Source: Mycolicibacterium chubuense (lineage in GTDB: Bacteria > Actinomycetota > Actinomycetes > Mycobacteriales > Mycobacteriaceae). From it: DNA of 60,263 nt. A program made the position numbers and the translations under genes. The stretch spans positions 110,081-170,343 of the forward strand of contig NZ_JYNX01000037.1 of assembly GCF_001044255.1 (NCBI RefSeq), in the 5' to 3' direction. The notes under the pieces are model-generated. The model saw only the letters and a list, made by a program, of their open reading frames with translations, was not told the DNA's origin and ran no database searches. Shown here piece by piece: positions 861-11,472 of this stretch. Positions within the stretch are counted from its first letter, which is position 1. Each line of letters begins with the position of its first letter.

Positions 861-865
861 GTGGG
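861..865. repeat. 5-bp target-site duplication, left copy
   Basis: GTGGG directly precedes the TGTCCG terminus of the transposon and is repeated exactly after its other end at 11213-11217. A 5-bp duplication is what Tn7-like and Tn5053-like DDE transposases produce. Confidence 0.85.
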
Positions 866-942
866 TGTCCGTTCTCATTGATTCTGGGGCATTCTCATTG
901 AATCTGGGGTAAGTGCGTGTCTTTCTCATTGAATCTGGGGCA
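866..942. repeat. Transposon left end with three transposase-binding repeats
   Basis: After the terminal TGTCCG come three 20-bp repeats of consensus TTCTCATTGAATCTGGGGCA: 872-891 (one mismatch), 892-911 (one mismatch, abutting the first) and 923-942 (exact). All three share one orientation. Multiple subterminal copies are typical TnsB/TniA binding sites. They end about 20 bp before the first possible tnsA start, so transposase binding could repress the promoter. Confidence 0.85.
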
Positions 943-961
943 CGAGGCTTAGCGTTTATGT

Positions 962-1702
962 GTGCTGACGTCGGCTGTTTCGGCTGGGCCAGGTGTAGCG
1001 AGTGCAGTGGACTTGGAGTTCAACACCCGCGAGGGATGCACGCGGCAATCGCTGGACCGATGTGCTGCAACCCGGTTTGAGTTGGACTGTTCACCAGTGC
1101 GGAATTTCCCCTCGTTTCGAGGTCAGCGTAACTTTCCCGGGCTGTGGTGGTTCGCCACAACCGGCGCACATGTAGGTCACGAGTCCTGGGTAGAACGTGA
1201 CCAGTTGATGGCGTTGGATGCCGATCCGGATGTTGTTGGTGTTCTGTCGCAACCATTTTGGATTCATTGGCGTGACGGCACGCGGCATGCTCCTGACTAC
1301 TTCGTGCGGCGCCGCGATGGATCTGTCGTCGTAGTCGACGTTCGTGAGGACGACCGGATCTCTGACGCTGATCGGGACGTGTTCGATCGGTCTGCCGCCA
1401 CGTGCGCGATGGTCGGTTGGGATTACCTGCGTGTCGGTTCCCTCGATCCAGTGCTGCGGGCGAATCTACGTTGGTTGTCGGGTTATCGGCATCCGCGAGT
1501 ATTGAAGATCGGTTTGGCTGATCAACTGGCGGAGGTCTTCGCTCGGGTCCGTCCGTTGATGGCTGGTGTGCACGCGGTCGGGACTCCTTTGGTGGTGCTG
1601 CCCGTACTGTTTCATCTGCTCTGGCACGGCCGTTTAGTTGCCGATCTGCAAGGAGCGGCACTTGGCGACGACACGGCGATTGGCCTCGGGACCGGGTGGT
1701 GA
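962..1702 (+). CDS. tnsA: TnsA-like transposon endonuclease
   Basis: The 246-residue protein has the compact TnsA N-terminal nuclease pattern: Glu residues in ESWVERDQLMALDADPDV (about 74-78), the Asp in HAPDYF (112) and the strand VVVVDVR (122-128). In Tn7 TnsA, a restriction-enzyme-like nuclease, these positions (E-D-xxK) cut the 5' ends of the transposon so that it excises cleanly. The usual catalytic Lys appears here as Arg in DVR. A GTG at 1007 (VDLEFNTREG) is an equally good start. The gene lies 6 bp before the transposase gene in a four-gene operon. The assignment as TnsA-like is good; activity is inferred. Confidence 0.75.
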   Translation: MLTSAVSAGPGVASAVDLEFNTREGCTRQSLDRCAATRFELDCSPVRNFPSFRGQRNFPGLWWFATTGAHVGHESWVERDQLMALDADPDVVGVLSQPFWIHWRDGTRHAPDYFVRRRDGSVVVVDVREDDRISDADRDVFDRSAATCAMVGWDYLRVGSLDPVLRANLRWLSGYRHPRVLKIGLADQLAEVFARVRPLMAGVHAVGTPLVVLPVLFHLLWHGRLVADLQGAALGDDTAIGLGTGW

Positions 1703-1708
1703 CCTGAC

Positions 1709-3790
1709 GTGCGAACGGGTGTCGTCCGAGAGGGAGACGAAATCCGTTTATCAGCAGGTGTTTTCACCGTCGTAACCCTGTCGGGCGGATCAGCTCGACT
1801 GGTTGACGCTGTCGGCGAGCAGATTGTGGTGCCGCTCTCGCAGCTGATGGTTGATCCGGCATTGGAATTGGTGTCGGGGTCGCGACCGCCACTGTGTTCT
1901 GAGGAAATGCTGGCTGGCATTCCCGAGGCAGCCGTCGAGCAAGCACGGTGGTGGGAGCGCCACATCGTGGAGATCCTCAGCGGCCGCCCGCCTGGGACGG
2001 CCGCGGGCATTCGTCCCCGCCCAGAGTTCGACACGGCGAAACGATCTCTGCGGCAGCGTGAGCTGGCCAAGTTGGACGAGCTGCGTGCCGCCGGCCACGA
2101 CGTGAGTCGGAATGCGTTGCAGCGTCGCCGATTTGCCTACGAACGGGACGGGCTCCTGGGAGTGGTTGACGGGCGCCATAATCGGCGGCGCGCGGTATTC
2201 GGCCGTGTGGACGACCGTGTCGTCGCCGCGGTGCGGGATGCGATCGAGGGCGAGACCGACCTGTCAACGGGAACGGTGCAGCGTCTGCAACGGCGGGTCG
2301 CCAAGACGCTGGTGGCCACCTATGGTGCCGACGACGCGCCCGCGATGCCGTCGCAGCCCACCTTCTACCGGCTGGTCAAGCGCCTCGCGGAAGGACGGCA
2401 CACGTTCGGGTCAGCACGGACGCGGCGATCGCTGTCCAAGCAGCCCGATGGCCCATTCGGGTCGATCACCGTGGTGCGCCCCGGCGAGATGGTGGAAATC
2501 GATTCAACCCTTCTGGATGTACGGGTAGTGCTCGATGACGGCATGGTAGACCGAGTCGAGCTGACTGCGATGGTCGACAACGCTACGCGGTCCATCCCGG
2601 CCGCGGTGCTGCGACCGACGACCAAAGCAGTGGACGCGTCACTGCTCTTGGCGCGGGCATTGACGCCCGAACCGATGCGCCCGGGATGGGCCGATGCGCT
2701 GCGGATGTCCCGGTCGGTACTTCCGCACCACAGCCTGACCAGTGTCGATCAGCGCCTGGCCGATGCTGCGGCCAGGCCGGTGATCGCTCCCGAGACGATC
2801 GTCTGCGATCACGGGAAAGCGTATCTGTCCCAAACATTTCGGCAAGCGTGCTGCACATTGGGGATCAATCTGGAGCCGGCTCATCCCGACTGCCCGACCG
2901 ATAAGCCGAAGATCGAGCGGACATTGCAGTCGGTGGGCACCCTGTTCGCACAGTACGTGGCCGGTTACGTCGGTTCATCGGTGGAGCGGCGTGGGAAAAA
3001 CGCCGAGGACGACGCGGTGTGGTCGATGATTGAGCTGCAGGCGCTGCTGGACGAGTGGATCATCGCGGTGTGGCAGAACCGCCCCCACGATGGCCTGCGG
3101 GATCCGGTGACGCCGGGGAAAGCGTTGTCTCCCAACGAGAAATACACTGCCCTCGTTGAGGTGGCTGGCTATGTACCGGTCCCACTGGACGCCGACGACT
3201 ATATCGAATTGCTTCCCGTGCAGTGGCGCACAATCAACAGTTACGGGGTCCGGATCAACCATCGCACCTATGACGCCAAGGCGCTCAACCCATACCGGCG
3301 CCAGCATTCCGGGGTCGATGCCCGTAACGGACAGTGGGAAGTGCACTACGACCCGTATGACGTGTCGAGGATTTGGGTGCGCAATCACCACGAAGACGGA
3401 TGGCTGGCCGCGACGTGGACGCACCTTCGGTCCTCGCCGGTGCCGTTCGGCGAGACACTGTGGCGCCACGCCCGCTCCGTAGCCGACCGCAGAGGGGCCC
3501 AGAAGACCCAGGAAGCGGAGATTGCGGCCATCGCGGAGGACTTGCTGGACCGCGCCGCCGCTGGGCCGCAGCAGCAGACGAAAGCCGAGCGCCGAGTGAC
3601 TGGACGGACCAGCGCCGCGAGCGCCGGCCGGGACTGGCCGGACCCGACGGAATCATCCGAACATCATGGCCCGTCACCGTCGGAACGGGCCGCCGACAAC
3701 GAGACTTTCGACGATGACGGCGAGATGGCGGAGGTCATACCCCTGCCGGTGTTTGATGCACGCAAGGAGGCCCAAACGTGGCGACTGTGA
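1709..3790 (+). CDS. tnsB: DDE transposase, TnsB/TniA family
   Basis: This 693-residue integrase-fold transposase joins the 3' ends of the element to target DNA. The catalytic triad is visible as D265 (VEIDSTLLDV), D367 (TIVCDHGKAY) and E403 (PKIERTLQS), with the classic D-35-E spacing. The N-terminal 240 residues hold the helix-turn-helix modules expected to read the 20-bp end repeats. After the core comes a Mu-type C-terminal barrel (about 480-580) and then a charged tail, which would contact the ATPase. The last codons overlap the ATPase gene by 13 bp, and the Shine-Dalgarno AAGGAGG for that gene lies inside this one. The length fits TnsB/TniA (550-700 residues). Confidence 0.9.
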   Translation: MRTGVVREGDEIRLSAGVFTVVTLSGGSARLVDAVGEQIVVPLSQLMVDPALELVSGSRPPLCSEEMLAGIPEAAVEQARWWERHIVEILSGRPPGTAAGIRPRPEFDTAKRSLRQRELAKLDELRAAGHDVSRNALQRRRFAYERDGLLGVVDGRHNRRRAVFGRVDDRVVAAVRDAIEGETDLSTGTVQRLQRRVAKTLVATYGADDAPAMPSQPTFYRLVKRLAEGRHTFGSARTRRSLSKQPDGPFGSITVVRPGEMVEIDSTLLDVRVVLDDGMVDRVELTAMVDNATRSIPAAVLRPTTKAVDASLLLARALTPEPMRPGWADALRMSRSVLPHHSLTSVDQRLADAAARPVIAPETIVCDHGKAYLSQTFRQACCTLGINLEPAHPDCPTDKPKIERTLQSVGTLFAQYVAGYVGSSVERRGKNAEDDAVWSMIELQALLDEWIIAVWQNRPHDGLRDPVTPGKALSPNEKYTALVEVAGYVPVPLDADDYIELLPVQWRTINSYGVRINHRTYDAKALNPYRRQHSGVDARNGQWEVHYDPYDVSRIWVRNHHEDGWLAATWTHLRSSPVPFGETLWRHARSVADRRGAQKTQEAEIAAIAEDLLDRAAAGPQQQTKAERRVTGRTSAASAGRDWPDPTESSEHHGPSPSERAADNETFDDDGEMAEVIPLPVFDARKEAQTWRL

Positions 3791-4806
3791 CCGAGATTGC
3801 GGCGGTGGGTCAGTTAGAGGATCGCCGCCAGCCGACCACGACGCTGGAGGGCTGGCGGCGTTTTGTTGATGCCGATCCGCCGGAGTTCACGTTGCTCGCC
3901 GACGACGAGTGGGCCAGCCTCGGTGAGGACGAGCGGACGGCCTACAACGAGGCCCGGGTTGCGCATCATTCGGAGCTGGTGGTGGTCACCACGTCGGCGA
4001 TCGAAGCGATCACCCATCAGGGCCGGCTGTTGACATTGCTCAACCAGCGCGAGATCGGGGCCCGGCGCGGGCTGATCATCTCCGGCGGGGCAGCGACGGG
4101 GAAAACTACGGCGATCAAGCAACTGGGTCGGTTTCACGAATTGCGCACCCGTGCACGGTTTCCCGGCGATGAGAGCCGGATTCCGGTGGTGTATGTGACG
4201 GCCCCGCCGAAAGGGTCGCCCCGCAAGTTGGCGATGGAGTTCGCACGGTTTCTGGGGCTTCCCACGCTCAATCAGCGGATGAACGTGACCGATATTTCCG
4301 ATGCCGTGTGCCAGGTGCTCATCGATGCCCGTACCGACATCGTGGTGGTCGATGAAATCCACAACCTCAACCTCGACACCCGCGCCGGCGAAGAACTGTC
4401 CGACCACCTCAAATACTTCACCGAGCATCTGCCTGCGACATTCGTTTACGCCGGGATCGAAGTGGAACGCTCGGGGCTGTTCACCGGCACGCGGGGACGG
4501 CAGTTGGCCGGCCGTTGCGGGGTGATCCACACCAGCGCATTCCCCGACGCCAAGGAGTGGCGACAACTCGTCGCCGCCATGGAAGGTACCTTGCGTCTGC
4601 ATCGACACGAACCGGGAAGCCTTGTCGCCCAGGCCCGTTACCTGCACCGCCGCACCGGCGGGATGATCGGCAGCCTGGCCCACTTGATCCGGGCTTCAGC
4701 AATCCAAGCGATGCTCGACGGCACCGAGCACATCACCCGCGAGGCCATGGACGATATTTTGATCGACTACGCCGCCCACACGGCCGCGGCCCGCACGGCC
4801 AGCTGA
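3778..4806 (+). CDS. tnsC: Transposition AAA+ ATPase, TnsC/TniB family
   Basis: This 342-residue ATPase should couple target selection by TniQ to the transposase. Walker A is GGAATGKT (K109), Walker B is IVVVDE (D192, E193), and a sensor-like TFVYAGIE block follows. The GTG start overlaps the transposase gene and is served by AAGGAGG about 7 bp upstream. The stop is separated by one base from the tniQ start. The protein is shorter than Tn7 TnsC (555) and close to TniB-type ATPases (about 300), so it is a compact version. Family assignment is firm. Confidence 0.88.
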   Translation: MATVTEIAAVGQLEDRRQPTTTLEGWRRFVDADPPEFTLLADDEWASLGEDERTAYNEARVAHHSELVVVTTSAIEAITHQGRLLTLLNQREIGARRGLIISGGAATGKTTAIKQLGRFHELRTRARFPGDESRIPVVYVTAPPKGSPRKLAMEFARFLGLPTLNQRMNVTDISDAVCQVLIDARTDIVVVDEIHNLNLDTRAGEELSDHLKYFTEHLPATFVYAGIEVERSGLFTGTRGRQLAGRCGVIHTSAFPDAKEWRQLVAAMEGTLRLHRHEPGSLVAQARYLHRRTGGMIGSLAHLIRASAIQAMLDGTEHITREAMDDILIDYAAHTAAARTAS

Positions 4807-4807
4807 C

Positions 4808-5683
4808 GTGGCAACTGTCAGGCCGTGGCCGCGCGGACCACGCCAGCGGCTCCCGCGAACGATCGCACCGTTCCGTTGGGAAGCCGTATCGTCCTACATC
4901 GACAGGCTGGCCCGCGCCAACCATATCGGCGTCTCCACACTGCGCGGCCATGTCGCCGAATCATGCGCAGCCCGGCCGCGACCGGACTGGTTGGCCGTCG
5001 TCAGCGGCCAACCTGAGCAGGTAATCCGGTCCCGTCTCTGCGGGCTTGCTGGCGACCCCACCGCGCTCAAGCAATATCTCCGCCGCCCTTTGTGTCAAAG
5101 ATGTATGGCACGCAAGGGAATACACGAACCCGTCTACTGCTACCTGCCTGCACATGTCTCCGTATGCCACCGTCACCGACGCTGGATCGGTTCACCAACG
5201 CGCGTTCTTGACGACCAGGTGGATCTTCGTGACCGGCCCACGGTGCTCAGTGCCGGGCGCACGCATCGGCGCTTGGCCCGTCAGTATTCAGAGGTCGACC
5301 TTCATGACGCCTTGGGCGACGCCCGCCACATCCTGGTCTTCTGGGCTCACGCAGAGCGTCACGTGGCGGCGGGGATTCTGCAGAATGGCCTAGAAGCGCA
5401 CGTGGTGGCCTACCCCGATGTGATCGCCGTAGCCGCAACATTGCTCACAGCTCGCCCTCGGGTTGAACAGCCCAGGACGCCAACGGAACCCGCCTGGCCG
5501 ACGCTACTGCTCGACCGCATCAACGAACGCACCGGCGCCCACCATGCCGACGCCACCCCCGTCGAGCAATGGGCGCAGTACCGACGCCTATTCGCCACTG
5601 CCGTATTGACGACACGCTCAGACGGCGCAGAACTGGCGTGTCGCGCTGAGGGGTCGGCAGTCTTGAATGTGCCTTATCAGTAA
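4808..5683 (+). CDS. tniQ: TniQ-family target-selection protein
   Basis: The 291-residue protein has the N-terminal TniQ domain and a zinc ribbon made by C96-xx-C99 (PLCQRCMARKG) and C120-xx-H123 (SVCHRHRRW). TniQ/TnsD proteins bind or recruit target DNA and load the AAA ATPase. This is the only TniQ in the element, and it lacks the long C-terminal DNA-binding extension of Tn7 TnsD. The target may therefore be chosen with relaxed specificity, in line with a flank that holds no conserved attachment gene. It starts with GTG directly after the ATPase stop. An 8-bp hairpin overlaps its stop codon. Confidence 0.82.
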   Translation: MATVRPWPRGPRQRLPRTIAPFRWEAVSSYIDRLARANHIGVSTLRGHVAESCAARPRPDWLAVVSGQPEQVIRSRLCGLAGDPTALKQYLRRPLCQRCMARKGIHEPVYCYLPAHVSVCHRHRRWIGSPTRVLDDQVDLRDRPTVLSAGRTHRRLARQYSEVDLHDALGDARHILVFWAHAERHVAAGILQNGLEAHVVAYPDVIAVAATLLTARPRVEQPRTPTEPAWPTLLLDRINERTGAHHADATPVEQWAQYRRLFATAVLTTRSDGAELACRAEGSAVLNVPYQ

Positions 5684-5688
5684 GGCAC
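5669..5688. terminator. Hairpin at the tniQ/ccdA convergence
   Basis: GTGCCTTA-TCAG-TAAGGCAC is a perfect 8-bp stem with a 4-nt loop overlapping the tniQ stop codon. It lies between the converging transposition and cargo operons. Only TT follows on the plus strand, so it would be a weak intrinsic terminator. The 100 bp up to 5786 hold nothing else that I can identify. Confidence 0.45.
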
Positions 5689-5786
5689 TTGTGGTGTGCA
5701 TCTGACTGTGTCCGACGGTTGTATCTATCGGCTTTCTAATCGTTAGGGACAGTGGTATCTGGCTGGGTGTATCGGCCGGTGAATCA

Positions 5787-6635
5787 TCACCGGCGGCGCT
5801 GCTTGCCGGTGATTGGCCGGCGGTGGGTGGTCCAGTACGCGGCCACCGCGCTGACCACCACAGCGAAGGCGGCAATGACGCTGGCCGGGAGGGCGTGGTC
5901 CTGCAGCCATCCGGTCGCGGTGGCCGACCAGCCGGTGAGCAGGTTGCCGCCGCTGGCGGTGTGCCCGGTGGCCGCGGGCAGCCAGTACCACGCGAGGTAG
6001 GCGCCGGTGGCGATGAGGACAACGGCGGTGACGCGGGTCCCGTGGCGGGCGAGGATACCCAGATGCCGGGTCAGGGCCGTGCCGGCGATGGCGGTGCCGA
6101 CGCTGACCAGCATCAAGATGGTGGCGGCACCGGCTGTGTATGCGGTGAACACTGCCAGCAGACCGCCCCATCCGCTGGTGGCCTGGGCCTGGGCGATCAC
6201 CGCGAGCAGTACCCCGAAGGTGCAGGACAGTGACGCCAGGGCGTAGCCGATTCCGGCCGCGAGCACACCACCGGCTGTTGGGGAGTCCGGCCGATGACGC
6301 GTCCGGGCAGGCATACGCAGACCGATGGTGCGGCCGGTGAGCATGAAGCCGCCCAAGATGGCCAGGGTGAGCCCGATCGTGATCCCGAGCCAGGGAGCAG
6401 CCGTCACCAGGGTCCGGGCACCGGCACTGATCGCGATACCGGCGAGGGTGAGGGTGCCGGTGAACCCGATGGTCAGGACGGCCCCGGTGCGCAGTGCCCG
6501 GGCCAGCCGCACGAGCACCGCATCGGTGCCGCCGGTGGCGATGGTGCCGGTGATCCACGCCGGTAGCAGCGCGAACCCGCAGGGGTTGACCGGGGCGAGC
6601 ATGCCAGCGGTAAACGCGAGCGCGAGCAGGTTCAC
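5787..6635 (-). CDS. CcdA/DsbD-type cytochrome c biogenesis membrane protein
   Basis: This integral membrane protein of 282 residues has six or seven predicted hydrophobic segments. The two conserved intramembrane cysteines of CcdA are present: C19 in PVNPCGFALLP (TM1) and C138 in SLSCTFGVLL (TM4). CcdA proteins move electrons from cytoplasmic thioredoxin to extracytoplasmic thiol proteins. Its GTG start overlaps the stop of the redoxin gene by 4 bp (GTGA), so the two are translationally coupled and probably work as a pair. Inside a mercury operon its likely role is to keep an exported thiol protein reduced; that role is inference. Confidence 0.82.
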   Translation of the reverse strand: MNLLALAFTAGMLAPVNPCGFALLPAWITGTIATGGTDAVLVRLARALRTGAVLTIGFTGTLTLAGIAISAGARTLVTAAPWLGITIGLTLAILGGFMLTGRTIGLRMPARTRHRPDSPTAGGVLAAGIGYALASLSCTFGVLLAVIAQAQATSGWGGLLAVFTAYTAGAATILMLVSVGTAIAGTALTRHLGILARHGTRVTAVVLIATGAYLAWYWLPAATGHTASGGNLLTGWSATATGWLQDHALPASVIAAFAVVVSAVAAYWTTHRRPITGKQRRR

Positions 6636-7186
6636 CGTGCGGCGCTGCTGCCGAGGGCGGCCAGGATCTGATCCTGGGACGGGGCGTGGCCGCGGTAGCT
6701 GATCTGCCCGGACGGGTCGATGACGAGGGCGGTGGTCGGCGCGGTCACCTGGTAGCGGCTGGTCAGGGCCCCGTTAGTATCGACGACCGCGGGCAGGCTG
6801 GTGCCGCCGATCTGGTCCAGGAAGTGGCGAACATCGGCGGGTTTCTCGGTGGGGACGATGTCGACGGCTAGGAACTTGGCGCTGCCTCCGGCTTTCTCCA
6901 CGGCCGCCCGAGCAGCGGCCAGGGATTTACCGCCGCCGACGCATTCGCCGCACCCGTAGGAGAAGAACAGGATCGCGGTCGGGGCGGCAGCGGGCAGTTC
7001 GACGGTTTTGCCGTCCACCGTGGTCAGTGTCGCCGCCGTCGCCTGGGTTGTGGCGTTGGCGTGTGGCGGTGAGGTCGGATTGCTGGTTGTGGCCGATTGG
7101 CCGCACGCGGTCAGCGCGCCCGCTGCCAGCATCACAGCCGTAACGCCCGCCCACCTGTGGGGTGTAAACGAACGCGTTTCAGACAT
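6632..7186 (-). CDS. Thioredoxin-like lipoprotein with CGEC motif
   Basis: The 184-residue protein has a lipoprotein signal peptide (hydrophobic stretch ending LTAC at residue 28), a Ser/Thr/Pro-rich linker and a thioredoxin/redoxin fold with C79-G-E-C82 in FFSYGCGEC. It is predicted to be anchored outside the membrane, where CcdA would reduce it. The start overlaps the MerT-like gene stop by 8 bp and the stop overlaps ccdA by 4 bp, so all three are coupled. A role in trapping or handing over Hg(II), or in repairing thiols damaged by mercury, is plausible but not shown. Confidence 0.78.
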   Translation of the reverse strand: MSETRSFTPHRWAGVTAVMLAAGALTACGQSATTSNPTSPPHANATTQATAATLTTVDGKTVELPAAAPTAILFFSYGCGECVGGGKSLAAARAAVEKAGGSAKFLAVDIVPTEKPADVRHFLDQIGGTSLPAVVDTNGALTSRYQVTAPTTALVIDPSGQISYRGHAPSQDQILAALGSSAAR

Positions 7187-7469
7187 TGTCGATGCTTCCT
7201 TTCGTCAGGTCGTCGAGCGTGTGCGTCGCGGGTGAATGGCTGTCGGCGGGACAGCAGTGATCGCCGCGTTGACCGCGGCGGGCGAAGGCGACCACAGCCG
7301 CCAGCAGCAGCGCGACGGCTGCCCCGATGACCCATGGATTCTCGAGCAGTCCACACACGGCGGCGAGCGCGCCGCCGGCGATCAGGACTGGCGCGGCGCA
7401 ACACAGGGCCGTCACCAGCACCGCTGCCGCACCCAGCAGCACGGGATTTCTTCGTGGACGTTGATTCAT
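7179..7469 (-). CDS. MerT-like small membrane protein, putative mercury importer
   Basis: This 96-residue protein has two hydrophobic helices. The first carries a vicinal Cys pair followed by Pro (C23-C24 in ALCCAAPVL), as in the first helix of MerT/MerF mercuric ion transporters. A second pair, C72-C73 (DHCCPAD), sits in the soluble tail, where MerT and MerC use Cys to pass Hg(II) to the reductase. It is in the mer operon after merB and before the redoxin. No MerP is present. The name is inferred from motif and context; the protein is shorter than MerT (about 116). Confidence 0.6.
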   Translation of the reverse strand: MNQRPRRNPVLLGAAAVLVTALCCAAPVLIAGGALAAVCGLLENPWVIGAAVALLLAAVVAFARRGQRGDHCCPADSHSPATHTLDDLTKGSIDNV

Positions 7470-7501
7470 TGATTTCTCCTCATCAGGTTGGGTGCGGCTG
7501 G

Positions 7502-8143
7502 TCAGCTGCAGCAGCCGGGGTGGGCAGTTGGCGGGGTATGGAGCTGGGTAAGGATTTGTGTGGTCAGGGCTGCGCCGAGTTGGTGGGCCTCAGCGACGCT
7601 GACGATCTGACCTTCGGGGTGCTCGGCGAGCCACGGCGCGGCGTCCTGCGCGCAGGTGAAGTAGTGCACCTGGTTGCAGAATGAGGACCGGATCGAGGTG
7701 AGGTCGTCGGGGTTGACCAGCGAGACCACCGCGGTCTCGGGCTGCACGCTGGTGACACCGTTTTCGCCGACCGAGACCCTGATCGGGTGCCCGCTGACGG
7801 GTGATTCGGATTCGATGCTGGCGGGCCGGTCCAGGATGGTGGGAAAGATGAGGGTGTCCAGGGCGCACCAGGTGTAGAGCTCTTGGCCGGCCACGGTGAA
7901 TCGGTGGCGGGTCGGGCGCAGGGTCAGGCCCTGGCCGACGATGCGGCCCTGCTCGTCGTATTCGGTGTCGGGTACCGCGGCCAGACGCCGGGTCACCTCG
8001 TCAACCGGGAGGCCGACGGCCGCGGCGAGCGCCTCCACGGTGACCGGCTCGCCGGCGGCGAGCAGCCGCAGCAACGGCACCAGCATCGTCGGGTCGAGCC
8101 CGGACTCTTCCGGAATGGTCAGGCGGTCAAGGAAATTGGGCAT
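7502..8143 (-). CDS. merB: Organomercurial lyase (alkylmercury lyase)
   Basis: MerB cleaves the carbon-mercury bond of compounds such as methyl- and phenylmercury and gives Hg(II) to MerA. The 213-residue protein shows the active-site set C93 and D96 (WCALDTLIFP) and C156 (SFCNQVHYF), with an N-terminal winged-helix-like region. The C-terminal GCCS adds a Cys pair that might pass mercury on. Length matches the family (about 212). The ATG lies 26 bp after the merA stop in the same operon. With MerB the cargo is broad-spectrum mercury resistance. Confidence 0.92.
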   Translation of the reverse strand: MPNFLDRLTIPEESGLDPTMLVPLLRLLAAGEPVTVEALAAAVGLPVDEVTRRLAAVPDTEYDEQGRIVGQGLTLRPTRHRFTVAGQELYTWCALDTLIFPTILDRPASIESESPVSGHPIRVSVGENGVTSVQPETAVVSLVNPDDLTSIRSSFCNQVHYFTCAQDAAPWLAEHPEGQIVSVAEAHQLGAALTTQILTQLHTPPTAHPGCCS

Positions 8144-8169
8144 CAGGAACCTTTCGAGTGAGCCATGCG

Positions 8170-9573
8170 TCAGGATGCGCAGCAGGACAGTCGGGACATA
8201 TCGGCGCTGAAGGACTGGGCGGCGATTTTGATGCCTTCGGCCATGGTCAGATACGGGGCCCAGGACCCGGCGACCTGGTCGACGGTCATCGCGGCGTCGA
8301 GGATGTAGACCGCGGCGGCGGCGATCTCGCCAGCATCCTTGGCGACGGCGGTGATGCCGTGGATGCGGCCGGTGCCGGCGTCGGCGACGAGTTTGATGAA
8401 ACCGCGGGTGTCTCGGTTGACCACCGCACGCGGCACATGTTTTAGCGGCAGCACCCGGCAGTCGTACCGTGTCCCGGCGGCGAGGAGCTCGGCCTCGGTC
8501 GTCCCGGCCGCACCGACCGCGGGGCTGGTGAACGTCACGCGGGGCAGATGGCGGTAGTCGACCCTGCGGCCGGCGTCGGTGAAGATGTTGTCGGCGACCA
8601 TCGCGCCGTGATGGGCGGCGACGTAGACGAACTCGCGGTGCCCGGTCACGTCGCCGGCCGCCCAGATCCGTGGGTTCGACGACTGCAGCCCGTCGCTCAC
8701 CACGACCTCGTTGTTCTCGCCGGTTTTGACCTGCACCGCTTCGAGATTCAGGCCGTCGGTGTTCGGACGGCGGCCGGTGGCGACGAGGACTTTCGCGGCA
8801 CGGAACTGCTGCGTTCCGCCGGTGATGGTCGCGGTGACCGTGACCTGATCGTCGGCCTGCTCGACCTCGCTCACCGTGGCGCGGCGCACCACCCGGATGC
8901 CGTCGTCGGCGAACACCTCCAGCAGCGCCATGCCGACTTCCGGCTCTTCCTTCGATGCCAGCGTGGAGCGGACCAGCACCGTCACCGTTGACCCGAGCCG
9001 GGCGAACAGTTGCGCCTGCTCCAACGCGACGTAGCCGCCGCCGATCACCAGCAGCGACTCCGGGACCTCGGTGACTTCCATCGCGGTGGTCGAGGTCAGG
9101 TAGGCGACGCCCTCGAATGCGGGCGGGATGACTGGGTTCGCGCCGGTGGCGATCAGGTAGTGCTCGGCCTCGATGGTGGCATCGCCGACCTCGATGACGG
9201 GCGCGTCCGGGGTTCCGGCGAACCGCGCTTGGCCCTGAATGCGCTGCCAGCCATACGATTCGGCCACGTTGAGGTACTTCTCTGAGCGCAGCGACTCCAC
9301 CAGATCGTGCGTGCCGGCGATCAGGGCCGCCATGTCCACCGGGCCGGCCGTGGTGGCGATGCCCGGGAACCGGGCAGTGTCGGCTGCGGTATGCCGGGCC
9401 TCGGCCGCTGCGATCAGGGCCTTTGACGGCACGCAGCCGGTGTTGACACACGTGCCACCGAAGATGCCGCGCTCGATCATGACGACGGACTTGCCGAGCG
9501 CGGTAGCGCGGATCGCCGCGGCCATCGCCGCGCCGCCGGAACCGATGACCGCGAGGTCCAATCCCTGACTCAT
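8170..9573 (-). CDS. merA: Mercuric reductase without N-terminal metal-binding domain
   Basis: MerA reduces Hg(II) to volatile Hg(0) with NADPH. The 467-residue flavoprotein disulfide reductase starts with the FAD dinucleotide fold (VIGSGGAAMAAAIRA). It carries the redox pair C42/C47 (GGTCVNTGCVPSK), an NADPH fold around VIGGGYVALE, and the diagnostic C-terminal vicinal pair C464-C465 (LSCCAS) that distinguishes MerA from lipoamide dehydrogenase. The NmerA heavy-metal domain of many proteobacterial enzymes is absent, as in other actinobacterial MerA. The ATG at 9573 is chosen over an upstream in-frame TTG because GGATGGG is well placed before it and the TTG would lie in the operator. Confidence 0.93.
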   Translation of the reverse strand: MSQGLDLAVIGSGGAAMAAAIRATALGKSVVMIERGIFGGTCVNTGCVPSKALIAAAEARHTAADTARFPGIATTAGPVDMAALIAGTHDLVESLRSEKYLNVAESYGWQRIQGQARFAGTPDAPVIEVGDATIEAEHYLIATGANPVIPPAFEGVAYLTSTTAMEVTEVPESLLVIGGGYVALEQAQLFARLGSTVTVLVRSTLASKEEPEVGMALLEVFADDGIRVVRRATVSEVEQADDQVTVTATITGGTQQFRAAKVLVATGRRPNTDGLNLEAVQVKTGENNEVVVSDGLQSSNPRIWAAGDVTGHREFVYVAAHHGAMVADNIFTDAGRRVDYRHLPRVTFTSPAVGAAGTTEAELLAAGTRYDCRVLPLKHVPRAVVNRDTRGFIKLVADAGTGRIHGITAVAKDAGEIAAAAVYILDAAMTVDQVAGSWAPYLTMAEGIKIAAQSFSADMSRLSCCAS

Positions 9574-9582
9574 GCACCCATC

Positions 9583-9612
9583 CTTGACCTTCAAGTAGGC
9601 TTGAAGGTCAAG
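9583..9612. promoter_or_regulatory. merR-merA divergent operator/promoter
   Basis: A perfect inverted repeat CTTGACCTTCAAG-tagg-CTTGAAGGTCAAG (13-4-13) fills the 56-bp space between merA and merR. MerR-family activators bind such dyads between over-spaced -35 and -10 elements; a TTGACC hexamer is present on each strand at the edge of the dyad. It should control both directions. Confidence 0.78.
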
Positions 9613-9629
9613 TGTTCTGAGGAGACATC

Positions 9630-10019
9630 GTGAGAATCGGGAAGCTCGCCGAGGCGACCGGGGCCACCACCGCGACGCTGCGCTACTACGAAGACGAAGG
9701 CCTGCTCCCGCCCGCCGAACGTTCCCCGGCGGGGTATCGCGACTATGCCGCCGACACGATCGCCCGGGTCGGCTTCATCCGACGGGGACAGGCCGCCGGG
9801 TTCAGCCTCGCCCAGATTCGGCAGATCCTCGACATCCGTGACAGCGGCCACGCGCCGTGCACGCACGTGCGCGACCTGCTCGACATCCGACTGACCGACC
9901 TCGACGAGCAGATCAGCGCACTGGTGGCACTGCGCGAGACCATCGCCCGGCTGCGGCAGGGCGCCGAAAGCGTCGACCCGGAATCATGCAGCGCCGATGA
10001 CGTATGTCGATACCTCTAG
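9630..10019 (+). CDS. merR: MerR-family Hg(II)-responsive regulator
   Basis: The 129-residue protein begins with a MerR winged helix-turn-helix (MRIGKLAEATGATTATLRYY) and continues with the dimerisation helix. Three cysteines, C77 (HAPCTHV), C120 and C126 (ESCSADDVC), match the three-Cys arrangement that binds Hg(II) across the MerR dimer. It is divergent from merA and would switch the shared dyad at 9583-9612 from repression to activation. The GTG start follows GAGGAG. CadR/ZntR-type regulators are alternatives, but the context strongly favours MerR. Confidence 0.85.
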   Translation: MRIGKLAEATGATTATLRYYEDEGLLPPAERSPAGYRDYAADTIARVGFIRRGQAAGFSLAQIRQILDIRDSGHAPCTHVRDLLDIRLTDLDEQISALVALRETIARLRQGAESVDPESCSADDVCRYL

Positions 10020-10157
10020 GAGCCACCTCCGTGGCACCGGAGGCATGTATTTCGTCAAGTCCGTTGACCCCGGCAGTCGTCATGAATTTCCGCCCCACTG
10101 GAGGTCGTTGGTGCGCGGGAGCGCGGGGCCTGCTGAGCAGTAGGCTCACCCGATGCG

Positions 10158-10799
10158 GTGGGATTTCACTCGAAGCTGGTCGCATTGGCCGTGCTGAGCC
10201 CAGCCACACTCGTTCAGGCGATCGCCACCTTCGCCATCACCAATATCGACGACATCGTGGTCCTCGCGGTGATGTTCGGCCAGGCGCCCGGTCATCGTGG
10301 CGCAGCCATCCGAGTGACCGCCGGTCAGTACCTCGGCTTCACCGCCATCTTGGCAGTTTCGGTCGGCGGCGCACTCCTGGGTGCCACGCTGCTTCCTCCA
10401 GCCGCACTGCCGTACTTCGGGCTGCTGCCCATCGTGTTGGGGCTGCGGGCGGCATGGCTGGCCTGGCGGGATCGCCGCACCCAACCGGCGCCGACCGATG
10501 ATCCCGCAACACTGTTGACGCCTGGCACCTGGCAGGTCGCAGTCATCACCTTCGCCAACGGCGGCGACAACATCGGCGTGTACGTTCCGATCTTCGCCGT
10601 CTCAACGATCGCCACCATCGGTGTTTACATCATCGTGTTCCTCATCGGTGTGGCCATCTGGTGCGCGGCCGGCCGATATTTCGCCTCCCACCCGATCATC
10701 GCCAAAGCACTCTCACGCTGGGGCCACATCGTTCTGCCCGTTGCACTGATCACAATCGGGGCCCTCATCCTCATCAAAGGCGGAGCGTTCGCCCTCTAG
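10158..10799 (+). CDS. CadD-like cadmium resistance transporter (LysE superfamily)
   Basis: This 213-residue protein has about five to six transmembrane helices. Near the N-terminus it carries the CadD hallmark [15 protein letters not shown], repeated in mirrored form as [15 protein letters not shown]. CadD-type proteins export or sequester Cd(II) and related cations. The GTG at 10158 is used; a GTG at 10191 is also possible and closer to the usual family N-terminus. The gene follows merR in the same direction, 138 bp away, and may be co-transcribed with it. Its presence would widen the cargo to other soft metals. Confidence 0.72.
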
Positions 10800-10802
10800 C
10801 TC

Positions 10803-10950
10803 GGAGCAACTTCACCACTCAGGGCCAGGAGGCGCTCCTGCATCGGCATGTGTTGGCGTTCAACCACTTTGGTGATGTCCCGGCCCGTATCCGCTATGAC
10901 AATCTAAAACGGGCGGTGGCCAAGGTGCTCAAAGGCCGCAGCCGGCACCC
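10803..10950 (+). pseudogene. Remnant of an IS21-family IstA transposase
   Basis: A stretch of about 48 codons reads [20 protein letters not shown], then [18 protein letters not shown]. This matches the catalytic-core segment of IstA transposases (the FGGVPxxxxYDNLKxAV block). There is no start, no second Asp or Glu block and no istB. The remnant lies inside the transposon right after the CadD-like gene and probably marks how that cargo gene was brought in. Confidence 0.6.
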
Positions 10951-10985
10951 GAACTACCAACACGAGCGAGCGCACCACAGAATCA

Positions 10986-11013
10986 TGATCGTGTGTCACG
11001 AGAGACACGATCA
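10986..11013. other. Inverted repeat near the IS21 remnant
   Basis: TGATCGTGT and ACACGATCA form a 9-bp stem with a 10-nt loop. It could be a decayed terminator or an old insertion-sequence end. No T-tract follows. Between here and 11109 I see nothing else. Confidence 0.3.
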
Positions 11014-11109
11014 CAGTAGTTATACCGAAGACGTACCCGAGCCAACGGAATCGACAGGAGACCATTCCGGCTACCCTGCTGCGCTCGCAGCCGGGCGCGG
11101 AAGCAGGGT

Positions 11110-11212
11110 TGCCCCAGATTCAATGAGAAACGTCGCGATCGAAATTCTCATCCAATCTGGGGCAATGCAGGTCAGACTAGTAAATGTGCCCCAGATTCAA
11201 TGAGAACGGACA
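11110..11212. repeat. Transposon right end with three transposase-binding repeats
   Basis: Repeats lie at 11110-11129 and 11187-11206 (both TGCCCCAGATTCAATGAGAA, exact inverse of the left-end consensus) and at 11145-11164 (TTCTCATCCAATCTGGGGCA, two changes). The middle copy is in the opposite orientation to the other two. The end closes with CGGACA, the inverse of the left TGTCCG. Confidence 0.85.
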
Positions 11213-11217
11213 GTGGG
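11213..11217. repeat. 5-bp target-site duplication, right copy
   Basis: GTGGG immediately follows the right terminus, identical to 861-865. Removing the element and one copy would restore a continuous sequence GGCGCAGGTGGGGCAAGTG. Confidence 0.85.
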
Positions 11218-11472
11218 GCAAGTGTGCCATCAGTGAACTCGATTGGCCGACTCGGCGCGAGGTCCGATCACACGGCCAGCGCGGAAGCATCACGAGACGC
11301 ACAGCTCGATAGGCGAATGACTGAAAACCGTGTGCGCTCGGTCGGCGCATTAGTGAAAAAGTCGGAGATCAACTGCAAAACGACAACTATCGGCGCACGG
11401 AAAGCGCTGATCGGCATGCACACCTCGGCATATCGCTCTACCGATAAGCCACATTATGTCAACTGGACTCCG
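11218..11472. other. Gene-free stretch beside the transposon
   Basis: About 255 bp of lower-GC sequence without a convincing coding frame, RNA or repeat. The short plus-strand frame here has no family character and arises partly from the transposon end. Together with 791-865 it formed the target region before insertion. Confidence 0.5.

Follow-up and report, generated by a model that had tools for sequence, protein, structure and literature searches.

The window analysed here, a stretch of 60,263 nucleotides from Mycolicibacterium chubuense (contig NZ_JYNX01000037.1), contains a mobile Tn7-like transposon of 10,347 bp which carries genes for resistance to mercury and, probably, cadmium. It lies between a short palindrome and dif, the site where bacteria separate finished chromosomes. 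The positions of this element and its relatives suggest that insertion is guided by the transposon's TniQ protein to a conserved dif-associated module, a reading to which a probability of roughly 0.7 may be given. Targeting beside dif looks undescribed before, and the novelty of the element would seem to lie in its target and not in its mercury cargo; dif targeting by Tn7-like elements was not found in the literature searched, which excludes subscription papers and preprints.

The transposon as a whole (866 to 11,212, + strand) is defined by its termini, its duplications, its copies elsewhere and an empty site. It is flanked by two copies of GTGGG (861 to 865 and 11,213 to 11,217). The left end (866 to 942, + strand) consists of a TGTCCG terminus followed by three 20-bp repeats at 872, 892 and 923, and the right end (11,110 to 11,212, − strand) of repeats at 11,110, 11,145 (inverted) and 11,187 with a CGGACA terminus. 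All six repeats are copies of TTCTCATTGAATCTGGGGCA with 0–2 mismatches, those at 872, 892, 923 and 11,145 reading on the + strand and those at 11,110 and 11,187 on the − strand; no further copy with up to four mismatches occurs in the whole 60-kb window. Near-identical copies in other genomes end at the same two points, give or take a few chance bases. A 5-bp duplication of its own is present in 7 of the 11 two-ended copies with flanks (L numbers denote loci, G numbers genomes and W the window copy): GTGGG in W, TCTGG in L114, GCATG in L074, CTGGT in L097, TGAAT in L117, GCACG in L118 and CCAAT in L183. Two further copies, L115 and L116 of G162, have two duplications matched crosswise, and L069 (M. 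rhodesiae JS60) and L119 (G211; internally rearranged) lack one. At the empty site, L178 in genome G079, the joined flanks of the window align ungapped with 236 of 256 positions identical (92%) and a single GTGGG. An earlier note on this DNA, made from the sequence alone, had proposed an intact element of this length with TGT...ACA ends, six repeats and a perfect duplication, and had suggested a search for empty sites in relatives; the shared ends of the copies bear the proposal out, and the boundary at the G079 site agrees with it. What is most unusual here, a placement next to dif and a conserved palindrome, falls beyond the interval (861 to 11,217) that the note covered.

The palindrome proposed as the target determinant, TGTCACAGTGACG, occupies positions 818 to 830, differs by one mismatch from the consensus CGTCACNGTGACG and has its centre 41.5 bp from the left end. 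Beyond the right end lies the chromosomal dif, TCTACCGATAAGCCACATTATGTCAACT (11,437 to 11,464, + strand), the only match in the genome at up to one mismatch. A dif motif, CCGATAANNNACATTATGTCA, emerged from comparing the flanks of many insertions. It occurs once in the genome of the window, at 11,441 to 11,461, which is 228 bp from the right end, and it fits the dif of Frankia alni, CACGCCGATAATGCACATTATGTCAAGT, as given in the available text of PMC3025954. Of 34 genomes tested, 33 contain the motif at up to one mismatch, 30 of them a single time, and the reversed control gave no match; the motif is likewise present in 364 of 396 mycobacterial genomes (one per species, that of the window included).

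The association of the palindrome with dif was examined by counting the inner 11 bases of CGTCACNGTGACG with up to one mismatch. In 53 of 71 distinct dif neighbourhoods it lies 230–371 bp upstream of dif (median 278), as against 17/65, 5/64, 3/64 and 1/61 in other upstream intervals and 0/71 downstream. Palindrome and dif are both present in DNA free of the element, and the palindrome is found in G065 and G045, genomes without a TnsA match, as well as at the empty site of G079. It occurs 3–14 times per genome in 22 genomes (reversed control 0–3) and is therefore not peculiar to dif.

The insertions themselves point to the palindrome. The set comprised the element and relatives with TnsA about 60–100% identical, giving 30 cases with a left flank after L120, L121 and L122 (without left flank) and L076 (left flank of 58 bp) were set aside. 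In 17 of these 30 a palindrome with at most one mismatch lies outside the left end at a distance of 41.5–105.5 bp, and in 16 it is within 30–100 bp, compared with 1.24% of random points having one within 30–100 bp on either side (a control drawn on 17 of the insertion loci). When both sides are considered, 20 insertions have a palindrome at 30–110 bp, and in 17 it is on the side of the left end; in L128, L077 and L122 it is on the right at 70–75 bp, L122 having no left flank by which to judge.

An alternative is that TniQ recognises dif itself, or dif bound by XerCD, from a distance that varies, with the palindrome as a passive neighbour. Many chromosomal copies do have dif no farther than about 1 kb away, another lineage is fixed on dif (see below), and a dif-like sequence lies 173 bp from the plasmid-side site in G162. 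There is also a precedent in Tn5053, which senses resolvase-bound res according to the available text of PMC7765201. Against this, among 11 of the 17 palindrome-linked insertions measured relative to dif, the distance to dif varies between 207 and 607 bp, whilst that to the nearest palindrome stays within 41–92 bp. Two insertions, L074 and L125, follow a second copy of the palindrome farther from dif. Furthermore, for four of the palindrome-linked insertions no dif lies up to 3 kb away in the flanks examined: L005 (on plasmid pJCM15296, 96.5 bp from the palindrome), L119 (G211 contig C3, 70.5 bp), L114 (G392, 105.5 bp, with dif 18 kb off) and L068 (81.5 bp). Sensing of dif by this lineage is thus considered unlikely, and the notion of every copy tracking dif was abandoned in favour of the palindrome in view of the plasmid copies and the tighter palindrome distances.

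Several observations weigh against guidance by the palindrome. It is absent at 30–110 bp on the left in 13 of the 30 insertions. In six of these (L069, L071, L080, L085, L090 and L130) there is none within 400 bp on the sides examined; in four the left palindrome is too far (L131 at 400 bp, L117 at 235, L089 at 170 and L128 at 132, the last with one at 74.5 bp on the right); L077 and G162Y have none on the left (70.5 and 134.5 bp on the right, respectively), and L127 has one with two mismatches at 24.5 bp. The palindrome was found and counted in one data set, a bias which the random points lessen and do not remove, and the nearest copy was scored even where another fits better or lies farther (L118, L074 and L125). 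Many of the 71 dif neighbourhoods were chosen for carrying an element, the rest being the first rows of a list of genomes with dif. Among the 150 TnsA-family matches listed, dif is on the same contig for 68 and on a different one for 64, and the remaining 18 come from genomes in which dif was not located. Finally, a search of 30 loci showed no dif within about 1.5 kb of tnsA, including at up to three mismatches in the 28 of them that lie outside the genus and belong to the NCBI family NF033179, which already names this TnsA; a dif near the right end would be missed by such a search. The dif trait is therefore not universal, and the pattern holds in Mycobacterium.

A second candidate signal, the box AAGTCGGAGATCAACTGCAAAACGACA between the insertion and dif (11,359 to 11,385, + strand), was dropped because only 6 of the 71 dif neighbourhoods, this one included, contain it at up to three mismatches. 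The palindrome itself also occurs directly downstream of the parB gene, some 6 kb short of the chromosome end, at L242:1963 (G235) and L243:1952 (G152), Pfam confirming ParB, and at a similar distance from the chromosome end in G016 (L244).

Elements that mostly belong to a second lineage are found on the opposite side of dif. Ten such loci were read, and in nine the left end lies 42, 44, 48, 50, 50, 51, 51, 53 or 54 bp after the dif core; the exception is L131 (G087), where no end motif was found. Five of the nine (L164, L165, L169, L171 and L093) also show termini that match and a 5-bp duplication, the left end of the other four being recognised by motif only. L165 is inserted at an imperfect copy of dif in genome G337, where a further element sits at dif. 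Of these nine elements eight are mycobacterial, with TnsA 29–35% identical to that of the window where aligned, and the ninth, from Kribbella, has a TnsA 49% identical. Six mycobacterial dif-side TnsA proteins form one clade in the TnsA tree (support 94/98), with Kribbella across a supported branch (98/96). The TniQ proteins of five dif-side elements are 22–25% identical to TniQ of the window. A spacing of about 50 bp is that of CRISPR-associated transposons, within a statement on fixed-distance integration by Tn7-like elements in the available text of Benler et al. (PMC8649781). Apparent restriction or helicase-type genes were noted by eye downstream of tniQ in L166, L167 and L168, elements beside dif.

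It might be argued that no targeting is involved and that the replication terminus is merely tolerant and gathers transposons. Several mobile elements do accumulate there, and IS256 is somewhat frequent near dif too. In 37 genomes, however, 18 of 51 TnsA matches lie within 12 kb of dif compared with 4 of 133 for IS256, among the matches listed (Fisher p 2e-8), and one of these four IS256 copies lies inside a mer element. Of the 68 TnsA places on dif contigs, among the matches listed, 32 are no more than 12 kb from dif and 18 no more than 1 kb, and in G216, G087 and G002 different elements flank one dif on both sides. A tolerant terminus would not account for precision of tens of base pairs, the orientation of the left end, the use of mostly one side of dif per lineage, the reuse of the same nucleotide or the insertions in plasmids beside the same palindrome, and this explanation is considered improbable. 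Least credible is a preference for the terminus through replication and not through a DNA signal, as when TnsE of Tn7 directs insertion into replicating DNA (available text of PMC8649781), given that none of the ten open reading frames (ORFs) of the element scanned against Pfam matches TnsE, that precision is on the order of a hundred base pairs and that plasmid sites have the same palindrome.

Guidance by the palindrome can be set out as a mechanism. TnsB together with TnsA would act at the ends bearing the 20-bp repeats, TnsC would form a bridge and the single TniQ would pick the target. TniQ, alone or with a host protein, may read CGTCACNGTGACG and so set the left end about 40–105 bp away. 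The palindrome being commonly about 280 bp upstream of dif, insertions would come to lie near dif, probably a safe site, and some plasmids carry this signal too, which may enable the element to travel. The sister lineage, with its different TniQ, would use dif itself at 42–54 bp. The genes, ends, duplications, empty site, positions and close identity between species are direct observations. The roles of TnsB and TnsC, the fold of TnsA and the assignment of TniQ from its Cys/His residues and modest structural likeness follow from established families, whilst reading of the palindrome by TniQ is suggested by the positions of the insertions.

It is attractive to consider a wider proposal, tentative and judged to have somewhat less than an even chance of being correct. 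The chromosome dimer resolution module, made up of CGTCACNGTGACG, a spacer and dif, would constitute the attachment site of actinobacterial Tn7-like transposons, one TniQ reading the palindrome and another dif. The palindrome would then bind a mycobacterial segregation protein or Xer accessory protein, tying the spread of the transposon between chromosomes and plasmids to its presence. If targeting of the module is correct, dif and its flanking palindrome would join the short list of Tn7-like attachment sites, and this would suggest a way for a single mercury transposon to enter numerous mycobacterial species harmlessly. Compact TniQ proteins with two different DNA preferences would also become available for comparison. 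A conserved palindrome does lie next to mycobacterial dif, and the protein which binds it can now be sought.

The transposition genes lie on the + strand. The tnsA-like endonuclease gene (962 to 1,702) encodes 246 residues, among them E78, P111-D112 and D126-V-R128, the arginine of the last motif standing where a catalytic lysine is usual. The protein matches NF033179 in a profile search (E 1.1e-86), and its structural model (mean predicted local distance difference test, pLDDT, 91.8) retrieves 1t0f_A with Foldseek at E 2.3e-8, the Tn7 TnsA entries 1t0f and 1f1z being among the top matches. The column of the catalytic lysine holds arginine in 24 of 27 aligned proteins and lysine in 3, the column having been set by an alignment to a solved TnsA–TnsB fusion at E 0.053 only. 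There follow genes for a TnsB-like DDE transposase of 693 residues (1,709 to 3,790; PF09299, Mu-transpos_C), its DDE residues picked by eye, and for a TnsC/TniB-like AAA+ ATPase of 342 residues (3,778 to 4,806; PF05621, TniB).

The TniQ-like target selector (4,808 to 5,683, 291 residues) was recognised through its homologues. It has no direct Pfam match; PF06527 matches 17 of the 23 proteins in its alignment, and Cys96, Cys99, Cys120 and His123 are invariant across all 23. A Foldseek comparison of its model with the PDB gave nothing at E ≤ 0.001, and a profile search against PDB sequences gave two matches only, at E of about 0.9, neither of them TniQ. In VIA-align, TniQ chains rank top with modest Z.

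No resolvase was recognised among the element ORFs scanned, nor was TnsD, and CRISPR arrays or Cas genes were not noticed among them, albeit without a search aimed at these. The family matches together with the lack of a resolvase among the scanned ORFs uphold the description in the earlier note of a core resembling TnsA, TnsB, TnsC and TniQ, not the tniABQ–resolvase set. A working definition of Tn7-like elements, in the available text of PMC11406308, is the possession of TnsB and TnsC plus TnsA and/or a TniQ-family protein. The element has TnsB and TnsC with both of these, and it also has a TnsA-type PD-(D/E)xK fold, TGT/ACA ends, arrayed repeats of about 20 bp and a 5-bp duplication. It appears to work like a Tn7-like transposon with one chromosomal attachment mode.

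A number of parallels can be drawn with known systems. Tn7 (TnsABC with TnsD) shares the TnsA fold, a DDE TnsB, a TnsC-type ATPase and a TniQ-family selector, as well as arrayed end repeats, the 5-bp duplication and, apparently, insertion near a fixed chromosomal signal. In Tn7 the right end faces the target signal, whereas here it is the left end; the present element also differs in having no recognised TnsD or TnsE, no glmS, a proposed target in the palindrome/dif region and an arginine in the catalytic lysine column of TnsA. The res-site hunters Tn5053/Tn402 share mer cargo, TniQ, a TniB-like ATPase and an attraction to a region of site-specific recombination. These lack TnsA and have a tniR resolvase with an internal res; since TnsA is present here and no resolvase was recognised, the element is not filed with them, and its positions point to the neighbourhood of dif as the target and not to a resolvase res site. 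Tn6022-like elements, which are associated with TnsF and comM, are likewise Tn7-like with diverse target selectors. The text of a 2023 Mol Cell paper on elements of this kind (PMC10293859) does not contain dif, XerC, XerD, Actinobacteria, Actinomycetota or Mycobacterium.

By host and gene set, the element probably belongs to the same broad group as the actinobacteria-dominated clade 2 of Benler et al. 2021 (PMC8649781). In the available text of that paper the clade is, by contrast, called uncharacterised and linked to tyrosine resolvases, and 'dif' as a word does not appear there. An M. avium study (PMC12584985, available text) reports genes for TniQ, an ATP-binding protein and a Mu transposase beside arsenic genes as a recombination hotspot, which is possibly a sister element. 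On a plasmid of Rhodococcus sp. AH-ZY2 (L007), typed as conjugative by annotation, three TnsA–TnsB–TnsC–TniQ sets lie side by side.

The element is mobile and is shared among mycobacterial species nearly unchanged. Full or partial matches at about 100% identity (rounded) are present in 23 of the 396 genomes, that of the window among them, and ten of the 23 have it at full length. A TnsB 100% identical (rounded) occurs in M. arenosum, M. rhodesiae JS60, M. novocastrense, M. nebraskense, M. lehmannii, M. llatzerense and others, and plasmid pJCM15296 of M. aubagnense holds the left 6.2 kb of the element. In an alignment of sixteen copies, two of which lack part of the right end, 15 differ pairwise by 0–8 substitutions. 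The sixteenth, G200, shows 12–16 substitutions relative to fourteen copies, partly through misalignment beside an insert near 5,627, and 589 relative to M. arenosum, where two different inserts were aligned together. By flank comparison, the insertions in M. lehmannii and G162 are at the identical nucleotide; their flanks are 85–90% identical and the elements only 4 substitutions apart, which speaks for recent movement. The right flanks of G202 and G363 are identical over 1.5 kb and L068 and L069 agree at 94% over 657 bp, so a larger stretch of DNA may have carried these copies along.

G162 contains two copies on one chromosome, with CTATC outside and TCTCG inside as the crosswise duplications, and the 171-kb segment between them holds a TrwC-type relaxase. 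Such an arrangement results when a plasmid integrates via the transposon, whether through replicative transposition or through recombination. With arginine in TnsA at the lysine column, the element may move either by cut-and-paste or replicatively. Replicative movement with a TnsA inactivated by arginine in place of lysine may be considered, G162 having the shape of a cointegrate; however, homologous recombination between two older copies would leave the same shape. Although no substitutions separate the two copies in the alignment, they are not letter-for-letter equal. The dif-like sequence at the plasmid-side site has three mismatches, and the joined flanks of that site align, with gaps, over 353 columns to the region around dif in G013 (76% identity). 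Plasmids can therefore carry a similar module.

The cargo lies to the right of the transposition genes. On the − strand are a CcdA-like membrane protein (5,787 to 6,635, 282 residues; without a Pfam match of its own and annotated as CcdA in M. aubagnense), a redoxin/TlpA-like protein recognised by family searches (6,632 to 7,186), a small membrane protein with weak similarity to MerT (7,179 to 7,469), the organomercurial lyase merB (7,502 to 8,143) and the mercury(II) reductase merA (8,170 to 9,594; 474 residues with a C-terminal Cys pair), the last two identified by profile search. A MerR-family metal regulator (9,630 to 10,019) is divergent from merA on the + strand, followed by a CadD-type cadmium transporter (10,158 to 10,799, + strand; PF03596). 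The broad mercury resistance proposed in the earlier note rests on MerA and MerB, both of which are real, because the MerT-like protein scores below its cut-off and the regulator below the MerR equivalog cut-off. That note had also thought the pairing of mercury cargo with a TnsA core unusual. MerA or MerB occurs in 2 of 50 loci with related cores (some overlapping or incomplete), both being the same element as that of the window; mercury cargo thus looks rare in this clade. The pairing is nevertheless not novel, as merA is listed among Tn7-like cargo and an actinobacterial clade is described in the available text of Benler et al. 2021 (PMC8649781).

At the right end, an ORF at 10,661 to 11,203 resembles by eye a remnant of an IS21-type transposase, with no Pfam match. 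A mer operon about 80% identical to the cargo is found on the plasmid of M. aubagnense HPB1.1 (L006), where it lies beside tyrosine recombinase genes and not a TnsABC core.

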